Positions 28,008-64,000 of a DNA stretch of 64,000 nucleotides are shown here, piece by piece. Under the pieces are notes generated by a model. That model was not told the origin of the DNA and did not search any database. It saw only the letters and a list, made by a program, of their open reading frames with translations. Within the stretch, counting starts at the first letter, position 1. Every line of letters starts with the position of its first letter. The position numbers were made by a program, and so were the translations under genes. Source of the DNA: Odontesthes bonariensis (Eukaryota > Chordata > Actinopteri > Atheriniformes > Atherinopsidae); NCBI RefSeq assembly GCF_027942865.1, contig NC_134509.1, positions 7,602,254 to 7,666,253 on the forward strand, written 5' to 3'.

Positions 28008-28373
28008 AATCTAGGGCTGCACGCTGGTGTGGTGGTTAGAACCGTCGTCTCACGGCACAAGGGTTCCAGGTTCAATTCTGTGTGGAGTTTGCATGTTCTC
28101 CCTGCGTATGTATGCATGGGTTCTCTCCAGGTACCACCCCCCCAAAAAAATATGCATGTTAGGTTAATTGGTGATGCAAAATTGTTCCTAGGTGTGAGCG
28201 CCCAGCCACCGGGGAATGCAAGCCAGTGTATTTCTATTTATCCGGTCCCAAGCCCGGATAAATGGGGAGGGTTGCGTCAGGAAGGGCATCCACCGTAAAA
28301 CTTGCCAAATCAGTGATGCGAGATCGACTTGCTGTGGCGACCCCTGATAAAGGGAGAGGCCGAAAGAAGAAGA
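28008..28373 (+). mobile_element. tRNA-derived SINE-like retroelement with target duplication
   Basis: A perfect 11-bp duplication, AGTCATGACTT, flanks it at 27,997-28,007 and 28,374-28,384. The head has an A-box-like GTGGTTAGAACCGTCG and a B-box-like GGTTCAATTC. The body carries the teleost repeat phrases GTTTGCATGTTCTCCCTG and CTGTGGCGACCCCTGATAA. It ends in an (AAG)n tail. The tail plus target duplication shows retroposition. Confidence 0.75.
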
Positions 28374-28384
28374 AGTCATGACTT

Positions 28385-29450
28385 GGTCTACAATCATGCC
28401 AGCGACTCCTGGAGCACTTAAGAACAGTGATATTTTGACCTACTTAAATACCCATACTGACAATTACAATCTCATCCTTTGCAACTGTACTTAGACGGTT
28501 AAAACTGCAATGTGTATCCGTCTCCAGCACAGCTGAGGCTGATCATTTTTGGCCATCATTTTGCTGGTGCTTGGCTAGGAACTTCTCGAGATTTAACAGC
28601 TAAATGATCAACGTTCAGCAAAAATCAAATCAGCCAGCCGACCAGATTTCTACATGGATGACAACATATTTTGATCCAAAACACAATGCGAAAGGTGGTG
28701 CTGAAGGGCAACTCCAGGGAGTCCGTGCATAATGTTGTACCAAGCCAACGATTAGATGTTGAGTCATTTTTACCAGATAAATGAAAACTTTTCCAGTGAA
28801 ATGAAAAATGTACGAGATCACCAAAGTCAATTAAGTTCGACCTCGAGGATCACAGTGTTGTGTGTAGAATTTATTGGTTGAATTATTTCAACGAGATGGA
28901 GCGACTGCTCAACATAACCATCCCTCAAGACATTAGCATGGCTAATTACAGCAGCTTTAATGATGCATAATTGTACATTACATCATCTAGAATTGGTTAC
29001 AAGTTTCTCTTACAGTACTGTCTTCAGGATCAGATATGAATTGCCTGAGAGTTTAACTTTATCACTCCGTGTGAGTTTGGGGTTTGAGACGAGACATAAT
29101 TTCTTGGGGAAAATATTTCAGACATAATTCTGTACTCACGTTTCACATTGATAATTCATAAAAATATATATCTTTCATAAACGGCTGTACATTAAGAAGA
29201 AATAGCTCCAAAGAGGGGGAGAGAGATGGAGACAAAGGCAGAAGAGAGGAGAGAAAGGTAAAAAGTGATAAAGTTACAGCACTGATCAGTCTTGATTTGT
29301 CCTACGACAGTCTCTCAAAGAAGCATCAGTGGAGTGCAAAATACTGGAGAGGAAGTCTGGGGCTACCGCTTGAAGCGTGGAAACCTCAATGAAGCACATA
29401 TAAATAAATAATCACAATTTATATATATATATTACAGATTGTATTGCTAT
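28385..29450. other. Gene-free interval between rbfox2 and pde6h copy 1
   Basis: No coding exon seen on either strand. TTTATT at 28,869 (AATAAA on the - strand) is a possible polyadenylation site for pde6h copy 1. If it is used, much of this interval is its 3' UTR. Confidence 0.4.
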
Positions 29451-29601
29451 TTTGACACATCTCTGAGACAGCTGAGTTTTGGTGCATTATAACAAACATG
29501 AGGTCAGGTAACTCGGGAGGCAAAGGGGAACAGGGCCAGATGGGTGCAGCAACAGTAGTGCAGGTGGGTAACACGGGTGGGGTGAAGACATGGGAAGGTT
29601 T

Positions 29602-30208
29602 CTAGACGATTCCATATTTCGCCAGGTCGCTGAGCTCCATGTCCCCGAAGGCTTCCCATGGGCAAACCACTGTGATGTCTGTGCCAAGGCCCTCCATGCC
29701 GGGGATGTCGTCTCCGAATCTGCAACGAAAAAAACCACGATTTAACTCCCCCAAATCTTTTCCATTGTTGTGTGACTTTTAAAGGAAGAACGAGCTCTCG
29801 TGTGTTGTTATCATCAGCATTATTTTTTATTTTTCCAATTAAAACACTGTTTCAGGTAAAAGCAAAATAATTCAAAAGCATCAAAATCATTTTACATTAA
29901 ATTACTAATGGGTGTGAGAGGAATCTAAATTTTGTAGATCGCAAAAGGTCTTTCGTTCAATCCGAGGTGGCCACGAAATGAATCGTGAATCAAATGGAGA
30001 AGGAGAAACAAAACAGTCTCGCCTCACAAAACTTCTTCCATATATTGGACCTTTCTATGTTATCACTGATGATGTTGTTTTAATGTTGTTCTTATGTTTC
30101 TTACCCCTTCTGGCCTGGTTTTGGGGCCTTGCTCTTGAAGGTACGAGCAGTCCTCTGCTTGAACTTGGGAGGTGCCTTCTTGTCAGCGGGAGTTGCGACA
30201 TCTGCCAT
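29602..30208 (-). CDS. pde6h: Cone PDE6 inhibitory gamma subunit, copy 1
   Basis: Small inhibitory subunit of photoreceptor cGMP phosphodiesterase, released by activated transducin in the outer segment. Two coding exons on the - strand, 30208-30105 and 29719-29602, joined in phase 2 across a 385-bp intron, give 73 residues. Seen: the polycationic stretch [41 protein letters not shown], and the C-terminal LAKYGIV tail that plugs the PDE6 catalytic site. It is about 10 residues shorter than mammalian PDE6H, at the N-terminus. It differs from copies 2 and 3 only at residue 65 (Ser for Gly), with several silent changes. The choice of pde6h over pde6g rests on the neighbouring erp27 and Gla-protein genes. 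Confidence 0.88.
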
Positions 30209-31771
30209 TTTGCTGGTTTGCTGAAGGTTTAGAAGAAGCAAGAGCAAAATATATAAGTTCCCAATACATTGCACTGTTTATAAACCCAGGCTATAAACTT
30301 ATCTATTTTGCCAGTCATTGAAAGGTTTGGAACGGCTGCAACGGCTGTGTCTGCCATCTTTTATGCTCTGAGATAGACCGAAGTAACAGTTTTTTAGTTA
30401 ATCTTGATCTTTAACAGCTTTTCCCCTTCATCCTGATCCTCCTCTTCTAAGTTCCAACTCCCCCGCCCCTCGATGATGTAACTCTTTCAGGGGAGGTGAA
30501 ATTATATGTCGCAGCGCCTTAAGACCCTGTTACACAAAGAGATTTGTCTATTTTTACAACTTATAGCTTTTAAGATTCTTCTTGGCATAGTTATAGACCA
30601 GAATATCACCTATTTCAAAAGCAAGACTTAAGTCAATACACTTACTGTGCGTCAATAAACCCTATGATCCTATAAGAAGATTTTCCACTTAACAACTAAT
30701 TTTTAATCTACTTTAATCTGTCAAACAAGCACATCTTGAGGGAAAGCTCAGCAGTGCTCGGCATTTGACCTCAGATGTACTTGGACTTGACTGATGTCTT
30801 CTCTGGACGCATAGTAAATGGGTTTTCGATTTCACACCCGAATTTCTTTTTTTCACACTTCTCAGTGAGGTTCAAGCCTATCTTGATGTAAAATTCGAAT
30901 TATTCCTACACTTTTATTTGACCAGGATATCTCGTTATCGATCTAGATCTCTTCTTCTGGTGAGTCCTGGCAATTACTGCAGCACATCTTATTTAACAGG
31001 AAACAGAGCAGATTCAACCCTCACTTAATGGTGGAAGAGCATAAAATAAGGTTGGTGATCAAACGCGGTGCAATTTTAAAAACATTTACAAAACGTGACT
31101 TTTACAGATGTTTCCTCTGTGTTTTAACATTTCTCCACTTTTTTTAATGTATGTTTAAACAATCTTTTTTTGTGGCTTTTCACTTTTGTTAGTAAAGCCA
31201 GCGTGTGTTGCTTTTTCAGAGAACATTCAAGCTTCTGTTTACTGTAATATGAAATGTCTTGTAAGATTAAAAACACTTTACTAAATGTTTAAAGGATGAA
31301 AGTCCAAATTTGAAATTTGATGACGTGGTGTTTATCATTTATATTTGCCAAATGTATTTTTAATATCCCTGAAATAGGGTAAAATACATTTCTATAGGAT
31401 GCCTACCCATGGCTGAATGCAGTTACTGTCGTGAAAACGACCAGGTGGCTTAAAAAGGATTTAAATGAGCTTTCGAGTCGACTTGCGTTCTTTTCTATTG
31501 TTAAATTAGTTTGTGCCAAAACTGAAAAATTGAAAAAAAGTGTATTTGATAAGACTTCAGCCTCCTGACTGTTCCCAGCTTTCACAGAGCGCAAATAAGT
31601 TATCACATCAACTTCTGTAATACCTCTCAACAATTTCTGATGAAACATCAAACACTTGAGTTTTTTTCTAAGGAAGAGTATGTGAGTGCTGATTCCGTCT
31701 GTATCTGAGGCTAACACCGCTTTCCCTGCACAGCTGAAACAGCATTGTAAAAGTCGGAGTGTCAGTCTTAC

Positions 31772-31892
31772 CTTTTCCTGCAGTTGGACTGTTGGTTACT
31801 TGTTGGTGTTGCTCTGGTCAGCTTCAATCTGTCTGGTCTCTCTCTTGTCCCCCTTTTATATGCCTATACTCCCTCCCCCTTTTCTCTAATCC
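31772..31892 (-). promoter_or_regulatory. pde6h: Promoter and noncoding first exon of pde6h copy 1
   Basis: Read on the - strand: GGATTA (complement of TAATCC at 31,887), a CRX/OTX photoreceptor site; then TATAAAAGGGGG (31,860-31,849), a strong TATA box; then a probable noncoding exon ending at 31,772 with the donor GAAAAG|GTAAGA. The acceptor would be CTTCAG just before the ATG exon. Arrangement and spacing resemble copies 2 and 3, although the sequence itself is not obviously homologous. Inferred, not tested. Confidence 0.6.
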
Positions 31893-33944: not shown

Positions 33945-34616
33945 AAAGGACTTTTTAAAAAAGATTTTCTAATTCCTTACCAGACTCACAATTAAACCTT
34001 TATCTCAGGACCTCTTTTGATCTTACCATGTTGACATCACACACCTCAGTAGCCTCAATTACAAAGAGAACACCAGGGCAAAGATGTCAGAGGTATAAAT
34101 AGAACTAATTGGAATTATTAGCAACTAATCTGGAACACCTGATTTTATGGTTTTCAACATGTGTAGAGGTGCACATTCTTTTGTTTCCCATGAGACTAGT
34201 CAGTTTTTTTTTAAATTTAATTTATTTTTGTTCAGTTAATTACCAAATGTAAATTTACTGTCTGATTTGAGTGTGTCAGCTTTATCAACAGGCACAGTTT
34301 CAAGGGTTTGCTCGTTCATGTCTTACAAAGGTGAACAGTTTACATTTGGTGCACATATTTCTTTACGCGTATATAAAGCTTTAAAAACACAAAGCTGTTG
34401 AGCTTCTCTTTAATCATCTCATTTTAATCACTGCTGCCAGTAAATGACACCTCTCCACTTCACTTGAATTTGAACGTTTGACACGTGTGTCCAGCTTGAA
34501 ATGCATTTTGTGTTTACATCAAGCTTTCCTTTATCTCACCTATTTGTGGCTTAGCTGCTGCAAAGGAGGGCTGAGCAGAGCTGTTACATGAAAGAGTGAC
34601 AGAATGTACATTAAGT

Positions 34617-34728
34617 GGATTAGCAGCTGGGGAGGAGTTTAAAAGGAAGCCTCGGACCGACAGAGGAGCACCACAAGTGAGAAACCGACAGGCTCAACAC
34701 ACAGCTTCAGATAAACGCTGAACAAAAG
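34617..34728 (+). promoter_or_regulatory. pde6h: Promoter and noncoding first exon of pde6h copy 2
   Basis: GGATTA (34,617-34,622), the CRX/OTX photoreceptor site, lies 15 bp before a TATA-like TTTAAAAGG (34,638-34,646). A noncoding exon starting near 34,670 would end at 34,728 with donor AACAAAAG|GTGAGA. The acceptor is CCTTCAG, just before the coding exon. Confidence 0.6.
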
Positions 34729-35306
34729 GTGAGATGAAACTGCAATTTTGTCAGCTCTTGTACGAGGAGCTTTAACTGCTTTTATAATGTGCATCGTCCT
34801 GGGATGTTTAAAGGGCTTCTAAGGACTTCGTATTGCATCAGATTTCTTTCTGCTTTTCATTTGTTTCCTTATAGAACAGAATACAGTTTATTTGCTTGAT
34901 TATCCCAACTGAAATGGAGCCCAGATTGGATGCTTTATGAGTCGTTCTGTGTGCTGACCTTTTTGTTGGTACTCGTCAGCTTCCTCTCTCTATTGTTTGT
35001 CAGAGTTCTTTGGATTTAAACAAACACAGATATGTTCAGAGAACTGGTTGTCCATTTTATTTTCAAGGGTTAGTGCATTTCTCTCTTGCTGACTGGTGTG
35101 AATGTTTCCAAGAGGCTGAGAAATATATTGAACAGAAGTTACAGTGCAGCTTTACTGGAAAGTGCAAGTCATGAGAGAGAATGCTCAAACCTTTCAATAA
35201 CTGGCAAAATAGATAAGTTTAATGCCTGGGTTTATAAACAGTGCAATTTATTGGGAACTTATATATTTTGCTCTTGCTTCTTCTAAACCTTCAGCAACCC
35301 AGCAAA

Positions 35307-35659
35307 ATGGCAGATGTCGCAACTCCCGCTGACAAGAAGGCACCTCCCAAGTTCAAGCAGAGGACCGCTCGCACCTTCAAGAGCAAAGCACCTAAACCAG
35401 GCCAGAAGGGGTAAGGCTGAGATATTTCTATGATCACACTCGCAAAGTAAACATTTTCGGGCAATCTTTCCTCCTTCAATCAACAACTGCCACATCTGTG
35501 TCGCAGTTTTTTAATCAAAGCTTCTCGTATCTATGGTTCAGATTCGGAGACGACATCCCCGGCATGGAGGGCCTTGGCACAGACATCACAGTGGTTTGCC
35601 CATGGGAAGCCTTCGGGGACATGGAGCTCGGCGACCTGGCGAAATATGGAATTGTCTAG
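35307..35659 (+). CDS. pde6h: Cone PDE6 inhibitory gamma subunit, copy 2
   Basis: Two coding exons, 35307-35410 and 35542-35659, joined in phase 2 across a 131-bp intron, encode 73 residues from [11 protein letters not shown] to LAKYGIV. Gly is at residue 65 (copy 1 has Ser). The polycationic region, transducin-interaction region and C-terminal inhibitory tail are all present, so it looks functional. The start is the first ATG after the acceptor at CTTCAG. AATAAA at 36,117-36,122 is the likely polyadenylation signal. It is transcribed towards the centre of the inverted repeat, converging on copy 3 and divergent from copy 1. Confidence 0.88.
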
Positions 35660-36986
35660 AAACCTTCCCATGTCTTCACCCCACCCATTTTACCCACCTG
35701 CACTACTGTTGCTGCACCCATCTGGCCCTGTTCTCCTTCACCTCCCAACTCACCTGACTCCTTGTCTGTTATAATGCACAAAAACCCCAGAGCTGTCTCT
35801 GAAATGTGTCAAAATAGAGCCCTCTGTCCTCTGCCTTTACACATCTAACCGCTTCACCTTTCCCTGCCTTTCCACTGAATCGCCATCATCCCCTCCCACT
35901 TCCTCCCCACCTCTTCCACCTCTCCCTCTTAACCTTGCACAGAGGAAAAAAAACTCTTCTCCTCAAAGCTGCTGATTCATTGTGCACAGAAGTTTGTTAT
36001 TGTACTCACAAAATGACCTTTTGTTTCTTATGAGAAGTCTGCAATTCACATCATGCTGTACCGAGTAAGACCAGCTCTGTTTCTCAGTCGAGAGAAAGTT
36101 GCATGATAAGAAACCCAATAAATGTGACAATTTTCCACAGAAACATCTCATTGTGTTCTCATTATTGACAGAAATATATGCCGACACTGCAACTTTCATG
36201 CATTCAAACTGTAGAAATAAATCAAGGAGAGAGTGAACTGAAACATAGAGGGCAGAGAATATAAGTGAAGCCTCTGTTGCCATGGCTGCCAGACCCGCTT
36301 ATTCAAATAAGTAGTGTTTTTTGCCTCCTTCTGTAAAGAGTAAATTTTGACTGAGAACAACATTTCAAAAGTCAAGAACAATACAGTACAGCATCTGTTT
36401 AATTATCAAAATAATACCACAGACGCACCTAACATTTAAATGCACATACGCAATGCAGAACTAATGTATGAAGGGATAAAACAGATGGAAACTTGCTGTC
36501 CTGCTCCTCTTGTCCTAATTCTGACTTTTTTATACTTTTCACCAACTGACCATTCTGCTGCTTGTTTATGTTTACGTATCATGTTAATGATCAAAATGCA
36601 AAGGTACCATTTCACTGGTCACAATGCAGAATATAGAGTTACATGGAAAAAGTTAGGCAGTAAAAGTAAAGAGAGAACACAATACTTCCAATATGAATAG
36701 ATTTTATATATCAGTTAACTTCTTATAAAGTGCTGTACATTGGATTTAAGAGCAAATCGACATGGCCACAAGCAGCAACGGCTTCAATTTGTGATTGAAA
36801 ACATTCCACATCGACACAATAATTGACAACATCCTGCTGGTTTGGCATTTTGTGAAATATTTTGGAGAAAATCCTTACAGGACTAATCGCAGCCAGATTA
36901 CAGATTTCACTGCGAACTCACTGACATATCTGAACACCATCGGACGTGCGATAGCTACGGTTCAAAGAATGTCTGTCGATTTTGCT

Positions 36987-37208
36987 TGAATTTGACAGGT
37001 TTGTGGAAATCCATCCATCCATTGACAACCATGCATGCTCACAGTCACACCTGCTGGCAGTTTACAATCCCCTGTTAACCAAACAGATGCGTCGTTGGCC
37101 TGCAGGAGGAAGGTGGAGCACCCAGAGAAAACTGAGGCAGGCAAAAGTGAGAACATGGCTGTGAAAATGTAGATATTAATTAACTTTTACATATTCTCTT
37201 TTAAAGTA
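36987..37208. repeat. 222-bp segment present only in the left arm
   Basis: The left arm breaks from the right after GTCTGTCGATTTTGCT and resumes at TACAGTGATG. The extra 222 bp include CCATCCATCC, CACAGTCACACCTGC and GGAGGAAGGTGGAGCACCC, phrases of a common teleost dispersed repeat. Either it inserted here or the right arm lost it. Confidence 0.75.
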
Positions 37209-37365
37209 TACAGTGATGGACTTCTGAATTGATTATAGGTTCCAGTGATGTAATTGTGGTCAATTCAGTTTCGCATACAGGTCATTTGTTTGGGTGTTAG
37301 GGTTTTTTTAGATGTGTTTTAATTAGATTAGATTACAGTATGCCTTTTATATTAATGTCACATTT

Positions 37366-37654
37366 ACCACGCTCACACTCACTCCCAGAGTCAATTTAGA
37401 GTCACCCATTCACCTAACATGCATGTTTTTGGATGGTAGGAGGAAGCCAGAGTACCTGGAGAGAACTACAGGCTCTCACCAAAATCTCAGGAGATCTTGC
37501 CCAAATTTGATGATTAAGAGGATCAATGCAAAGATGCTACACTGGACATACAAAGTAGAGAAATGTGGCCAACGAATGTGAAAGGGTTTTATCTTAAAAC
37601 TGCTTCCATAAATTTGTACAAATTCAGATTATTATCATTACTTAGTCAATCCAT
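37366..37654. repeat. Spacer of the inverted repeat, containing a dispersed repeat
   Basis: About 290 bp of single-copy loop between the arms. It contains CAATTTAGAGTCACCCATTC and AGGAGGAAGCCAGAGTACC, the same teleost repeat family and orientation as the 222-bp insert. Confidence 0.75.
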
Positions 37655-39150
37655 AAAATGTGATATTAATATAAAAGGCATACTGTAATGTAATATTATT
37701 AAAACACATCTAAAAAAAACAAAAAAAAACAAAACAAATGACCTGTATGCATAACTGAATTGACAACAGGTACATCACTGGAACCTATAATCAATTCAGA
37801 AGTACATCACTGTAAGCAAAATCGACAGACATTCTTTGAACCGTAGCTATCGCACGTCCGATGGTTTTCAGATATGTCAGTGAGTTCGCAGTGAAATCGG
37901 TAGTCTGGCTGCGATTAGTCCTGTAAGGATTTTCTCCAAAATATTTAACAAAATGCTAAACCAGCAGGATGTTATCAATTATTGTGTCGATGTGGAATGT
38001 TTTCAATCACAAATTGAAGCCGTTGCTGCTTGTGGCCATATCGATTTGCTCTTAAATTCAATGTACTGCACTTTATAAGAAGTTAACTGATATATAAAAT
38101 CTATTCATATTGGAAGTATTGTGTTCTCTCTTTACTTTTACTGCCTAACTTTTTCCATGTAACTCTATATTCTGCATTGTGACCAGTGAAATGGTACCTT
38201 TGCATTTTGATCATTAACATGATACGTAAACATAAACGAGCAGCAGAATGGTCAGTTGGTGAAAAGTATAAAAAAGTCAGAATTAGGACAAGAGGAGCAG
38301 GACAGCAAGTTTCCATCTGTTTTATCCCTTCATACATTAGTTCTGCATTGCGTATGTGCATTTAAATGTTAGGTGCGTCTGTGGTATTATTTTGATAATT
38401 AAACAGATGCTGTACTGTATTGTTCTTGACTTTTGAAATGTTGTTCTCAGTCAAAATTTACTCTTTACAGAAGGAGGCAAAAAACACTACTTATTTGAAT
38501 AAGCGGGTCTGGCAGCCATGGCAACAGAGGCTTCACTTATATTCTCTGCCCTCTATGTTTCAGTTCACTCTCTCCTTGATTTATTTCTACAGTTTGAATG
38601 CATAAATGTTGCAGTGATTTCACTGTCGGCGCAGATTTCTGTCAATAATGAGAACACATTGAGATGTTTCTGTGGAAAATTGTCACATTTATTGGGTTTC
38701 TTATCATGCAACTTTCTCTCGACTGAGAAACAGAGCTGGTCTTACTCGGTACAGCATGATGTGAATTGCAGACTTCTCATAAGAAACAAAAGGTCATTTT
38801 GCGAATACAATAACAAACTTCTGTGCACAATGAATCAGCAGCTTTGAGGAGAAGAGTTTTTTTTCCTCTGTGCAAGGTTAAGAGGGAGAGGTGGAAGAGG
38901 TGGGGAGGAAGTGGGAGGGGATGATGGCGATTCAGTGGAAAGGCAGGGAAAGGTGAAGCGGTTAGATGTGTAAAGGCAGAGGACAGAGGGCTCTATTTTG
39001 ACACATTTCAGAGACAGCTCTGGGGTTTTTGTGCATTATAACAGACAAGGAGTCAGGTGAGTTGGGAGGTGAAGGAGAACAGGGCCAGATGGGTGCAGCA
39101 ACAGTAGTGCAGGTGGGTAAAATGGGTGGGGTGAAGACATGGGAAGGTTT

Positions 39151-39503
39151 CTAGACAATTCCATATTTCGCCAGGTCGCCGAGCTCCATGTCCCCGAAGG
39201 CTTCCCATGGGCAAACCACTGTGATGTCTGTGCCAAGGCCCTCCATGCCGGGGATGTCGTCTCCGAATCTGAACCATAGATACGAGAAGCTTTGATTAAA
39301 AAACTGCGACACAGATGTGGCAGTTGTTGATTGAAGGAGGAAAGATTGCCCGAAAATGTTTACTTTGCGAGTGTGATCATAGAAATATCTCAGCCTTACC
39401 CCTTCTGGCCTGGTTTAGGTGCTTTGCTCTTGAAGGTGCGAGCGGTCCTCTGCTTGAACTTGGGAGGTGCCTTCTTGTCAGCGGGAGTTGCGACATCTGC
39501 CAT
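39151..39503 (-). CDS. pde6h: Cone PDE6 inhibitory gamma subunit, copy 3
   Basis: Mirror copy of copy 2 in the right arm: exons 39503-39400 and 39268-39151 with a 131-bp intron, and the same 73-residue protein. Splice sites, start and stop are intact. The likely polyadenylation signal is AATAAA on the - strand at 38,693-38,688. Transcription runs towards the centre of the repeat, tail to tail with copy 2. If the assembly is right, the fish has at least three intact pde6h genes in 10 kb. Confidence 0.87.
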
Positions 39504-40081
39504 TTTGCTGGGTTGCTGAAGGTTTAGAAGAAGCAAGAGCAAAATATATAAGTTCCCAATAAATTGCACTGTTTATAAACCCAGGCATTAAACTTATCTA
39601 TTTTGCCAGTTATTGAAAGGTTTGAGCATTCTCTCTCATGACTTGCACTTTCCAGTAAAGCTGCACTGTAACTTCTGTTCAATATATTTCTCAGCCTCTT
39701 GGAAACATTCACACCAGTCAGCAAGAGAGAAATGCACTAACCCTTGAAAATAAAATGCACAACCAGTTCTCTGAACATATCTGTGTTTGTTTAAATCCAA
39801 AGAACTCTGACAAACAATAGAGAGAGGAAGCTGACGAGTACCAACAAAAAGGTCAGCACACAGAACGACTCATAAAGCATCCAATCTGGGCTCCATTTCA
39901 GTTGGGATAATCAAGCAAATAAACTGTATTCTGTTCTATAAGGAAACAAATGAAAAGCAGAAAGAAATCTGATGCAATACGAAGTCCTTAGAAGCCCTTT
40001 AAACATCCCAGGACGATGCACATTATAAAAGCAGTTAAAGCTCCTCGTACAAGAGCTGACAAAATTGCAGTTTCATCTCAC

Positions 40082-40193
40082 CTTTTGTTCAGCGTTTATC
40101 TGAAGCTGTGTGTTGAGCCTGTTGGTTTCTCACTTGTGGTGCTCCTCTGTCGGTCCGAGGCTTCCTTTTAAACTCCTCCCCAGCTGCTAATCC
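40082..40193 (-). promoter_or_regulatory. pde6h: Promoter and noncoding first exon of pde6h copy 3
   Basis: Mirror of the copy 2 promoter: TAATCC at 40,188-40,193 (GGATTA on the - strand), the TTTAAAAGG TATA-like box, and a noncoding exon ending at 40,082 with donor AACAAAAG|GTGAGA. Confidence 0.6.
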
Positions 40194-41308
40194 ACTTAAT
40201 GTACATTCTGTCACTCTTTCATGTAACAGCTCTGCTCAGCCCTCCTTTGCAGCAGCTAAGCCACAAATAGGTGAGATAAAGGAAAGCTTGATGTAAACAC
40301 AAAATGCATTTCAAGCTGGACACACGTGTCAAACGTTCAAATTCAAGTGAAGTGGAGAGGTGTCATTTACTGGCAGCAGTGATTAAAATGAGATGATTAA
40401 AGAGAAGCTCAACAGCTTTGGGTTTTTAAAGCTTTATATACACGTGAAGAAATATGTGCACCAAATGTAAACTGTTCACCTTTGTAAGACATGAACGAGC
40501 AAACCCTTGAAACTGTGCCTGTTGATAAAGCTGACACACTCAAATCAGACAGTAAATTTACATTTGGTAATTAACTAAACAAAAATAAATTAAATTTAAA
40601 AAAAAACTGACTAGTCTCATGGGAAACAAAAGAATGTGCACCTCTACACATGTTGAAAACCATAAAATCAGGTGTTCCAGATTAGTTGCTAATAATTCCA
40701 ATTAGTTCTATTTATACCTCTGACATCTTTGCCCTGGTGTTCTCTTTGTAATTGAGGCTACTGAGGTGTGTGATGTCAACATAGTAAGATCAAAAGAGGT
40801 CCTAAGATAAAGGTTTAATTGTGAGTCTGGTAAGGAATTAAAAAATCTTTTTTAAAAAGTCCTTTAAAACTCAAATAAAACCTTCCACTGTAAAGAAAAT
40901 AATTGACACAAAGAACAAACCTTAAATGGCCAGTTTTTCAAAGATTGTGCTTACCTAGAGTATTCACCCTAAGGAGCAGAATTTTAGTTCTTGATATAAA
41001 TCTTGATAAAACCAATACGGCCTCAAGCAGCAAGGTAGGAGACCAAAGCAGATTGGAAGCATTTGAATCATAACACGGACCTATGTTTTCAGATGAAAAC
41101 ACATTTTTATTCTTATCTTCTTTCATGATGAGGCAGAACTGAGGTACCGAGGTAACTTAAAAGGGTAACAGCAGTAAACAGTTTAATTGGATTATATTAA
41201 TACAACGCTGCAAATGATCATAAATCAGACAGTTGTGCTTGTGTTGACATGAACTTTGGTGAAGTGTCATCAAACATTCGGCAAAAACAGCAAATGCTGG
41301 TTGGACAT

Positions 41309-53500: not shown

Positions 53501-56423
53501 AGTACTCTATGCCATCACCACCACGCAGGATTTCCTGTAACATCAGTACTGAGTACATGAGTAATGTTGGGTTTCGTGAGGGTGACTCTATGATGACATG
53601 TGTTTTTCTGTTATCCAGGCAGATGACCACCAGGAGAACCTTGTTCTCGCTGAGGCCAAGAAGATAGAGGCCGAGGGACTTGTTTACTTCATCACCATCA
53701 ACGAGGTCCGATACATCACAGAGTACAATCAAGTGGTAGGTGAAATGCTCTTGTGGAAACAAGTGTCTGCTTCTCTCTTTTGTTAACTCTTGAGCTTGAT
53801 CTTTTTTATTCTCTATTTTTTCATTTAAATTGGAAAATTAGCAGAAAGCAAACAAGTGTTAATAAGCACACAAAGCCAGTACAAAAGACTAAAAACACAC
53901 TCACACACTGTGTTTGAGGTGAGAGGTCTGAAAAGCAAGATCATTGCAAGTGCGAACGCTATGTCTGACATCTTAACACTCTTTTTCTACTCTTTTTCTA
54001 CTCTTTTTTTTCTCTCTCCATGTCTTCTCAGACAGCAGTGGGCCTGTTCAATTCAGAGGTGAAGTCACACCTTTTGCTCTTTGCCAACAGGGGGAGTAAA
54101 GAATACACTGAACTCAAAAAGCTATTGGGAGCGCTCGCCCCTGACTTCACAGGAAAGGTGAAGATATTCAGAAACTAAATTCACCCACAAGAGTTTCAAC
54201 AGTTGCAAATCAATCTGCACATTTTAGAGGTTCGATAAGTTCACAGAGAAGAATCTGGTGAACTAGAGAACAAGTAAGCTCAGTATATGTTTAATTTATA
54301 TCTACATATAACAATTGTGTTCCAGTTCTTATTCGTGCTCATTAATGGAGCTGTGAAGTCCAACTTTAAGTCACTCAACTACTTTGGCCTTAAGTCCAAG
54401 GACCTCCCACAAGTTGGCATTTATGATGGAAATTCTGACATGAAGTGGCTCCTACCTGAAGGAGAGATTTCCACAGAGCGAGTGCAGGAGTTCTGTCAAT
54501 CCTTCCTGCGAGGAGAACTGAAAGTGAGTAGCCATTACCAGAACAACAAAGTCACTTGGTTTCCATCAACGTTTCATGATTCAGTGGAAAAGGGAAGAAA
54601 GAAAAGAAAAACTACATTACGTGAAAGCATTTTCTCGCTTATCTTTTTTAGTTGTTCTTATAATTTTGACAAAGATATAACGGGGAAACATCTCGGACAT
54701 TTGCATCCCACGACCGATGACGTGAACTATCAGCTGTCTCCACTGCCACAAAAATGAGCATGACCAATACTCAATAATTGGTTCTACATTTACTATCAAA
54801 AGAAATCTGAAGCAATCTTTTGAAAAGACAAAAAAAGGAAATTAGGCAATGTAGTGTTGGTAGAGGCTACAAGATCAACATATCCCATACTGCAACCACC
54901 ATAGTAGAAGGTGTCCTAGCTGGAAACTGACCTCCAAGAAAAAATTACAACAAATATTTTTGTTTTTTTTAATTTTACCAATTCCATTCATCTTTTTTTG
55001 TCATATCTAATAGATAGAAAAAGAAAAAAATACAAAACAGCCTAGTTTATTTGCTTCAAACTGTTTCTGGAAATGTGTCCGATTTCTACAACATCTCAGA
55101 GGTTCACCTCAAACTTGTTTGACATTTGGATAGAAACACAGCTACAGCTGATTTGTGTAGGTATTGCTTACTTTGTAATCTGTCAGGTAAAACGACCTTT
55201 TACAACTACTAGTTTCGAATGTTGCCGCGGCCACAGGGCAAAAGTTTACAATTTCATTATAAATTTGTGATTATGTCCAATTTATTTTTATTTGTACTTA
55301 AAAATGCAAATTAGCAACACAAAAAGATGAATGAAAAATACACATATTCTAATGCTATTCGAAGTTACACTACAGTAACAAAAGAGAAAAGATTTACAAG
55401 CAGTTTTGGCTGTGACTGTGTTTGCTTTGCGCCAAACGAAAATACAGGAAACGGCCAACTGGGTGTTGCAGTCTGGGGCCCGACTGATCAGAGTTTGTGC
55501 CTCACAGTTTTATGTTCAACTCTGGAGCCAAAAGTTCTGAATTCAGATACATTATATTCTGTGGATAAGTGGAAATAAATAGTATTCACAGAAAGTATTT
55601 AGATAATGTTACTTAAATCAGATAATTTTTTACTTTTAGTCTGGAATTCAAAAGTTTACTTCATTTAGAGAAAAAAGAATAAGAAAATAACCGTTGCACT
55701 TAAAAGCTTCTCTCACAGGAACTTCTTTCATGACTGTCACATTGTGTGACCGACAAACTCACTGTTATCACAAACAATTCAACAAACTTGTGACACACAT
55801 AACACAAACCCTAGTCTACTCTGAAAAGCATGTCTTAGAAGTCTGTAGCCATTTTACAAATTTCTAAGAGACCCACATCTCAAATGAATTGAAGAGCTTA
55901 TAATATAGAGTGATCATACATTTGGCATGGAGGAGTCATGGCTCAGGTGCTGGAGTCATCTCTTCCACTTGCAAGATTGGTGACGTGATCTCAAGCCCCC
56001 TAAAATCAATGATGGGTCATTTGGAAAGACTTGACAAGAATCCCTCATTGCCTCTGATGTGCTCACTGGCGAGTGATTGTGCAGAAAAAAGCGTTGCGTA
56101 TCCCTTTAATGTCCTGCTCTTCCATTTAGATAAGAGCACGTTTTTCAGTGACTATATTGTATCTTACTACAGATTTGTGGTAGTAAACCTGCCGGAGCTA
56201 TCTTTACTGTTTGATTTTGGTATGTAATCTCAGCCACTTGGTGAAAACAAGTTGAAACATTACTTTGAGCTCTCCTCCAAAGGAAACTTTGTGTAATAAT
56301 AATTAGTTTCAAGTAAAAAAAGTTATACGTGGTGCTGTATAGTTTGCCGTCTTTAACTTATTGATTTTCTACATTTTTCAGGAGGTGAAGCAAGCAGGAG
56401 AACAGCCCAAAACGGAGCTTTAG
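50585..56423 (+). CDS. erp27: ERp27-like endoplasmic reticulum protein
   Basis: Non-catalytic member of the protein disulfide isomerase family. Mammalian ERp27 has two thioredoxin-like domains (b and b'), binds unfolded substrates and recruits ERp57. Seven exons in consistent phase: 50585-50642, 52453-52538, 53364-53501, 53619-53735, 54032-54157, 54326-54523, 56382-56423, giving 254 residues (human 273). Seen: a signal peptide (MLITLALTLLVCSVTA); a b domain with AVEAFIDSAEVTVIGFLE and TISLFRKADD; the EYNQVTAVGLFNSEVKSHLLL junction; a b' domain with FLFVLINGAVKSN and YFGLKSKDLPQVGIYDG; and a C-terminal KTEL, a KDEL-type retrieval signal (human KVEL). There is no CXXC motif, so no oxidoreductase activity is expected. 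The acidic EWD region that I recall as linked to ERp57 binding in human is not conserved (MKWLLPEGE), so that partner is uncertain. Position next to pde6h agrees with human 12p12.3. Confidence 0.92.
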
Positions 56424-58741: not shown

Positions 58742-59420
58742 TTAAAGGGATAGTTCGCCTCTTTTGACATGAAGCTGTATGACATCCCATATTAGCAATA
58801 TCATTTATGAACATTTTCTTACCCCCCGCTGCGTCCTTGTGAGCAGAGTTCCAGCCTCGTTTTGGTGTTGACGAAGGTAGTCCGGCTAGTTGGCTGGGGC
58901 TTAAAAAATAAAGCGTTTTGCTTCTCAAATCAATATGCGTTCAAAAGAGTAATACATTTGCATCACAAAATCGTTAGCCAGAAAAAGTCAGACCTCACAT
59001 CGCTTGGCGCTTTTTTTGCCTCCCTTGATATCAATGCGTCCAGCCACCTGATGATAGCCGCACCTGTTACGGTGTTTGCTGCTCGGAAGCAGGGGAGAGC
59101 TCGGTCTGCACAGTTTTACATTGGACGCATTGATATCAAGGGAGGCAAAAAAAGCACCAAGCGATGTGAGGTCTGACTTTTTCCTGGACAACGATTTTGT
59201 GATGCAAATGTATTACTCTTTTGAACGCATATTGTTTTGAGAAGCAAGACGCTTTATTTTTGTGGCCCCAGCCAACTAGCCGGACTACCTTCGTCAACGC
59301 CAAAACTCAGCTGGAACTCGGCTCACAGGACGCAGCGGGGTAAGTCAATGTTCATAAATGATCTTGCTAATATGGGATGTCATACAGCTTCATGTCAAAA
59401 GAAGTGAACTATCCTTTTAA
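58742..59420. mobile_element. TTAA-flanked foldback MITE, 679 bp
   Basis: Almost the whole element is a long imperfect inverted repeat: arms of roughly 300 bp and a central loop of about 70 bp near 59,050-59,120. The ends read TTAAAGGGATAGTTC on the left and GAACTATCCTTTTAA on the right, with TTAA at both borders as for Kolobok or piggyBac-type elements. Opposite-strand reading frames in the two arms are mirror images, not genes. Confidence 0.85.
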
Positions 59421-63104: not shown

Positions 63105-63820
63105 ATGAAGACTCTGGCTCTCCTCTCCATCTGCGCTCTTCTGTCAGTCTGCTGGTCCATGGGAGGTAAGGAAAAACTCCTCTACTTCTCTCTGCATTAT
63201 TTGGGGCAATGCAAGCTCCTTGGCGACGTTTAACAAATGTTTTTGCTTTCTGTGTTCATCAGCCGTGGAACCTGAGGTCGTCGTGGATCCTGCGGCTGAC
63301 ACAGCTGCTGACACAGCTGCTGAAGCTGCACCTGCTGACCCCACAGCTGCCGCCCCAGATTCATCCTCCTCTTCCTCCTCCGAGTCTGATTCATTTTCGT
63401 CCTCTGCATCAGACTCTTCAGCATCTGATTCCAACTCTAGCTCAGACTCATCAGCCTCCGATTCAAGCTCAGAGTCCTCCTCCTCCTCATCCTCCTCCTC
63501 TGAATCGTCCTCCTCTGAGTCCGACTCCTCTGCCTCTGACTCCTCAGCGTCCGACTCCACTTCCTCTGAGTCCTCTTCGTCATCTTCCTCGTCGTCATCA
63601 GAGTCCATCAGTGTTGAAGGTGAGTCGCTGTTTGTTGCATGGTTTTGAAATGAAAGTTGTTTTGCTATGACTGCAAAACAAGAAAACTCACAAAAACCTC
63701 TTCCTTTTCCTTAGTTCCTTTAGCTTCTGAGGTGATTATGAAGAGAGACCTGGCCGCTGTTCTCCTGAGGAGTAGAAGAGCTGCTCCAGGAGGAAACCTC
63801 AGCCCTCTGCAGCTGGAAAG
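63105..63820 (+). CDS. Osteocalcin-like (OC2-type) Gla protein precursor, 3' end off the window
   Basis: Secreted vitamin K-dependent bone-matrix protein. Exons 63105-63165, 63263-63619 and 63715-63820 join in consistent phase; the last ends in phase 2 at LE-AG|GTACAG. The Gla exon (expected to begin SLREVCE or similar) lies beyond or near the window edge and was not found in the remaining 180 bp. Seen: a hydrophobic signal peptide (about residues 1-20), an Ala/Pro-rich stretch, then about 85 residues that are almost only Ser, Asp, Glu and Ala with many S-x-E/S-x-D acceptor patterns for secretory casein kinase (Fam20C-type). These are followed by a docking-like segment (VIMKRDLAAVLL), furin site RSRR and the mature N-terminus AAPGGNLSPLQLE. 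The Ser-rich propeptide is the mark of teleost osteocalcin isoform 2. MGP is unlikely: nothing resembles its body. Confidence 0.82.
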
Positions 63821-64000
63821 GTACAGTCAGTGGATAAAACAGGCTCAAAGAGCATGATCACACATTGTTAGCTTTTGTTTTGCTTGACCTTTGTGACAAT
63901 TCATTTAGGGGATCCTACCTTGTCAAATCATAACATTTTCTTTTTTAAACAAGTAAAAAACAGGAACAAAGAGCACGTGGTTTCACATGTTGTCTGACCA

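Follow-up and report, generated by a model that had tools for sequence, protein, structure and literature searches.

Two identical pde6h-type genes in an imperfect palindrome beside a third copy in Odontesthes bonariensis

How does a gene come to lie in both arms of a palindrome, what keeps its copies alike, and what do the additional copies do? These questions are raised by a stretch of 64,000 nucleotides from the fish Odontesthes bonariensis (hereafter, the window; C4:7602254-7666253), which lies on a 43.25-Mb contig of a genome of 945 Mb and 187 contigs. The window has three intact genes of the pde6h type, a gene that holds back the light response of cones. Two are convergent, have identical coding sequences, and are located in the arms of an imperfect palindrome; the third is nearby. 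We consider it probable that the three form a real local cluster, produced by an older duplication and a later inverted duplication, shaped by gene conversion, and with an effect on dosage in cones. We refer to the third gene as copy 1 (− strand), the gene of the left arm as copy 2 (+ strand), and the gene of the right arm as copy 3 (− strand).

The palindrome spans window positions 33945-40865, and its size of 6.9 kb is that of the entire palindrome rather than of a single arm. When the window is compared with itself using BLAST, the main repeat pairs 33945-36987 with 37814-40865 on the opposite strand at 98.8% identity (3052 columns, 27 mismatches, and one 9-bp gap). Its E-value is 0 and chance is therefore excluded. 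A repeat finder, used as a second method beside BLAST, recovered the same arms. Closer to the center, 37209-37365 pairs with 37656-37814 at 88.7% identity. Together with a two-sequence alignment, these methods delimit a left arm (33945-37365; + strand) and a right arm (37656-40865; − strand), and the 290 bp between them (37366-37655) form a unique spacer. Long inverted arms of high identity separated by a short spacer define gene palindromes, and here the arms match over 3.05 kb at 98.8%. The two-sequence alignment also places two differences in length: 222 bp are present in the left arm only (36987-37208), and the left arm has a 9-bp gap at 36184/36185, where the right arm has 9 extra bp (38617-38625). 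An earlier note on this DNA had described near-identical arms with differences of 9 and 222 bp around a 290-bp spacer, and had proposed aligning the arms for percent identity; the alignment, with values of 98.8% for the outer 3.05 kb and 88.7% for the inner stretch, bears out that description.

Each arm carries an intact pde6h-type gene with two coding exons, and the pair is arranged tail to tail. The 222-nt coding sequences of copies 2 and 3 are identical and encode a product of 73 amino acids, which matches Pfam PDE6_gamma (PF04868) over residues 8-73 with 135.3 bits against a cut-off of 25. PDE6 gamma chains in the PDB, of both cone and rod P-gamma and including one named cone P gamma, match from residue 8 or 9 to residue 73. 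In copy 2 (all + strand), a TATA-like box (TTTAAA, 34638-34643) with GGATTA upstream (34617) precedes a probable noncoding exon 1, predicted from sequence at 34660-34728 (start estimated; donor GTGAG at 34729), coding exon 1 (35307-35410), and coding exon 2 with the stop codon (35542-35659). In copy 3 (all − strand), coding exon 1 is at 39400-39503 and coding exon 2 with the stop codon is at 39151-39268. A G/A difference in exon 1 (34687/40123) distinguishes copies 2 and 3. A TATA-like box with GGATTA upstream precedes the gene in each arm, and we take GGATTA to be a photoreceptor motif of the CRX/OTX type. Polyadenylation signals (AATAAA) follow at 36117-36122 and again at 36216 in copy 2, and at 38688-38693 and again at 38585 in copy 3. 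Thus, the two intact convergent pde6h genes that had been proposed are present, with signals at 36117 (+) and 38693 (−), and the nearer signals of the two genes are ∼2.6 kb apart.

The third intact gene, copy 1, was overlooked by the earlier reader. It is on the minus strand at 29602-31860 and has its own promoter, with TATAAA at 31855-31860 and GGATTA at 31892. Coding exon 1 is at 30105-30208 and coding exon 2 with the stop codon is at 29602-29719. The encoded protein differs from that of the arms by a single residue, Ser65 in copy 1 and Gly65 in the arms. We considered whether any of copies 1-3 is a pseudogene and rejected this because all three reading frames are intact. A tblastn search of the window at an E-value of 10 returned six rows, all within the three genes, and thus no further pde6h remnants.

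Is the palindrome a product of assembly? The outer flanks of the arms are unrelated to each other. Genome-wide, a 656-bp stretch of the outer arm has no full-length match outside the two arms and one further match, of 45 bp at 87%, on contig C2, and an 801-bp stretch of the inner arm has two matches in the genome, both in the arms. Therefore, no loose alternative haplotype is visible. The candidate of a simple mirror artifact is rejected in view of the differences in length and bases, the spacer, and the genome context, and the same observations support the proposal that the duplication is real. A subtler error, in which a second haplotype or a fold-back read was joined in inverted orientation, is judged from sequence to be very unlikely. 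Divergence between haplotypes of near 1% occurs in heterozygous fish, so the ∼1% divergence of the arms is within the range that such an error could produce. However, it would have to account for a spacer of 290 bp, for length differences of 222 bp and 9 bp, and for an inner stretch with an identity of 88.7%. It would also have to account for unique flanks on both sides in a 43.25-Mb contig of a 187-contig assembly, and for arm flanks that have no other full-length place in the genome. Moreover, the clearly separate third copy next door shows that this locus does duplicate.

Mismatches between the arms are unevenly distributed. In the outer arm, four of 1503 positions differ in the gene (34638-36140) versus 23 of 1540 elsewhere (Fisher p = 0.0003), and when events within 10 bp are merged, three are in the gene versus 16 outside of it (p = 0.004). 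The longest run of identity between arms is 952 bp (simulated p = 0.00075). Conversely, differences are concentrated in the inner stretch, where 10 of 138 positions differ, a homopolymer excluded, versus 27 of 3043 outside (p = 2e-6); after merging, there are five events in 138 positions versus 19 events outside (p = 0.003). This uneven spread supports gene conversion between the arms, short of proof.

Several points weigh against conversion. The limits of the gene (34638-36140) were set after the mismatches were known. Merging events within 22 bp leaves 14 events, and significance is then lost for both the longest run (p = 0.079) and the dispersion among 250-bp bins (p = 0.105). In addition, 18 of the 27 outer substitutions are transitions, unlike the inner stretch in which most differences are transversions (13 of 16, or 7 of 10 without the homopolymer), so the inner stretch may have a separate history or be poorly aligned. 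These points leave room for an inverted duplication that was recent and involved no gene conversion, in which the arms are simply young and the clusters of mismatches reflect chance or uneven mutation. The outer 3 kb are only ∼0.9% diverged (27 of 3043 aligned bases), as expected of young arms, and the loss of significance under the strictest merging is in line with such a history. But a single age is hard to fit to both the innermost stretch (10 of 138) and the gene (4 of 1503), and the neutral introns of the gene match as well as its exons. We regard young arms without conversion as unlikely. Hence, the earlier proposal of a duplication kept alike by gene conversion is favored by the spread of mismatches, but its support does not extend to the stricter test.

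A cluster of differences surrounds the 9-bp gap, where at least five substitutions and the gap fall within ∼22 bp (36176-36197 / 38604-38634), as if a single complex mutation or template switch had occurred.

Copy 1 resembles the arms in a different manner. A short-word search returned two shared blocks only, and no other intron or promoter alignment of copy 1 with the arms. One block (30100-30329; − strand; 230 bp, 95.7%) consists of coding exon 1 and ∼112 bp of intron 1, and the other (29447-29722; − strand; ∼279 columns, 92.5%) of coding exon 2 and some of the 3′ untranslated region (UTR). Both are centered on exons and one stops at a splice donor. Homology in noncoding exon 1 and the promoter was rejected, as the alignment score of 5 did not stand out from those of 300 shuffles (mean 2.0, maximum 14). 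The number of synonymous substitutions per synonymous site (Ks) between arms and copy 1 is 0.156, compared with 0.85 and 0.73 between genes of the window and a pde6h-type gene on contig C26. At a Ks of 0.156, introns should still be alignable over their full length, yet they are so only beside coding exon 1.

The coding sequence is likewise a patchwork. Codons 9-19 and 30-64 show no difference between arms and copy 1 (0 of 138 nt), whereas each of the two departs from the C26 gene there at 14 of 138 nt. The seven differences between arms and copy 1 fall among the 60 nt of codons 20-29 and 65-74, none of them beyond codon 72, and five differences are within 28 nt (simulated p = 0.014). Comparison to the C26 gene suggests that the newer state is in the arms at codons 27, 28, 65, and 72 and in copy 1 at codon 22, and favors neither at codons 20 and 29. 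This alternation of identical and diverged segments probably reflects short conversion tracts between the arms and copy 1. Conversion via spliced complementary DNA was dropped as a candidate because both genes retain intron 2 and have sequence of intron 1 in common.

The choice of codon blocks (9-19, 20-29, 30-64, and 65-74) after the data were known weighs against short conversion tracts, as does the prospect that selection on exons could account for part of the likeness of copy 1. If taken to explain all of it, selection on codons and splice signals would produce the exon-centered blocks and the end of one of them at a splice donor. Silent sites do vary between the genes of the window and the C26 gene, as their Ks values attest, and the common sequence also takes in ∼112 bp of intron 1 along with a portion of the 3′ UTR. 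We view selection in place of conversion as rather unlikely.

We infer the following order of events. An older local duplication would have set copy 1 apart from the gene ancestral to both arms, and a later inverted duplication of that ancestor would have produced convergent copies 2 and 3. Conversion from arm to arm would have been strongest across the transcription unit and weakest next to the spacer, and was probably accompanied by shorter, exon-centered exchanges with copy 1. It is possible, if doubtful, that the cluster evolves in concert: the palindrome would homogenize whole transcription units and copy 1 would join by way of short, exon-centered patches. Introns and promoters would be free to diverge, so one protein would be made from two kinds of promoter and dosage would be raised.

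A dispersed repeat has copies within the extra 222 bp of the left arm, within the spacer, and close to copy 1. The first ∼100 bp of the spacer (37368-37467) resemble the copies at 37034-37133 (66%) and 28120-28198 (72%). The copies might have served in the formation or trimming of the palindrome.

Copies 1-3 are expected to be expressed in cones and encode nearly one and the same protein. The most probable consequence is therefore a change in dosage, or redundancy, of the inhibitory subunit of PDE6. We predict that this subunit would be supplied to cone PDE6 in greater quantity or more robustly. Inhibitory subunits of PDE6 are reported to set how active photoreceptors are in the dark and how they recover, and daily expression is reported to vary between the zebrafish duplicates (PMC4906994). 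With three pde6h-type genes at one locus, two of which are identical, this fish offers a natural test of cone sensitivity or speed against inhibitory-subunit dosage. The palindrome is also a small and clean candidate for conversion from one inverted arm to the other, and its importance would be greatest if it is retained in related species.

Judged by titles and the openings of abstracts, the literature searches yielded no report of a pde6h palindrome or of pde6h gene conversion. A structural parallel is offered by gene palindromes of sex chromosomes, in which conversion between inverted arms keeps the genes similar. The present palindrome is comparable in its inverted, gene-bearing arms and in the conversion proposed between them, and differs in that arms on sex chromosomes are usually much longer; there is no sign here that C4 is a sex chromosome. 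Among cone genes, LWS opsins S180-2 and P180 of poeciliids are likewise duplicated tail to tail, with conversion proposed among copies of the cluster, but a distance of 3,718 bp separates them and they belong to distinct subtypes, whereas convergent copies 2 and 3 are identical and in a near-perfect palindrome (PMC3087554). Local duplication of one of the teleost PDE6H duplicates, which have lost the last coding intron as have the genes of the window, was published in 2016 (PMC4906994). The kind of event is therefore known, and what is added here is the palindromic arrangement and the gene triplet; the text compared does not describe orientation, a palindrome, or conversion, nor does it name the species carrying the duplication. 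A pde6h-like locus has also been named in deepwater cichlids, in text that does not give its copy structure (PMC12210959).

Neighboring genes bear on the identity of the locus. Upstream is an rbfox gene, detected by matches of a hand-joined query to Fox-1_C and RRM_1, and which we presume to be rbfox2 rather than a paralog. Downstream are an open frame with an erp27-type exon (54278-54754; + strand; Pfam Thioredoxin_6), a syntenic marker, and the start of an osteocalcin gene of the bgp1b / OC2 type (63108-64000; + strand), with a signal peptide, a long propeptide, and the Gla exon at the end of the window. The labels erp27 and bgp1b are partly our assumption. Synteny with erp27 and bgp1 distinguishes PDE6H from PDE6G and PDE6I, and the window shows it in an erp27-type exon followed by osteocalcin exons. 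In the teleosts screened, bgp1b accompanies erp27, and both duplicate loci of Asian bonytongue include a pde6h paralog (PMC8006282). The window shares with that locus pde6h, an erp27-type exon, and a bgp1b-type osteocalcin, and differs in having three pde6h-type genes rather than one per locus (PMC8006282). Copies 1-3 and the C26 gene have a single coding intron and, as is described for teleost PDE6H other than that of zebrafish and cave tetra, lack the last coding intron (PMC4906994). From the rbfox-, erp27-, and osteocalcin-type neighbors and the absent intron, we identify this as the putative teleost pde6h locus.

A protein search of the genome returned 11 rows: six in genes of the window, two on C26, two on C1, and one on C28. 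The C26 gene is a second pde6h-type gene and a full-length relative. The gene on C28 has an exon ending in GLGT followed by a separate exon beginning with DITV, a split that is expected of pde6g, which we presume this gene to be. On C1, two divergent PDE6-gamma-like genes (C1:45145931-45146008 and C1:45172021-45172128) are ∼26 kb apart and have unusual C-terminal ends.

Two minor features of the window are in its downstream part. The propeptide of the osteocalcin gene (63108-63645) is very long and rich in Ser and Asp. At 58742-59420, a 0.69-kb fold-back matches its own reverse complement at 86.5%, and its ends resemble those of a known fish fold-back transposon.

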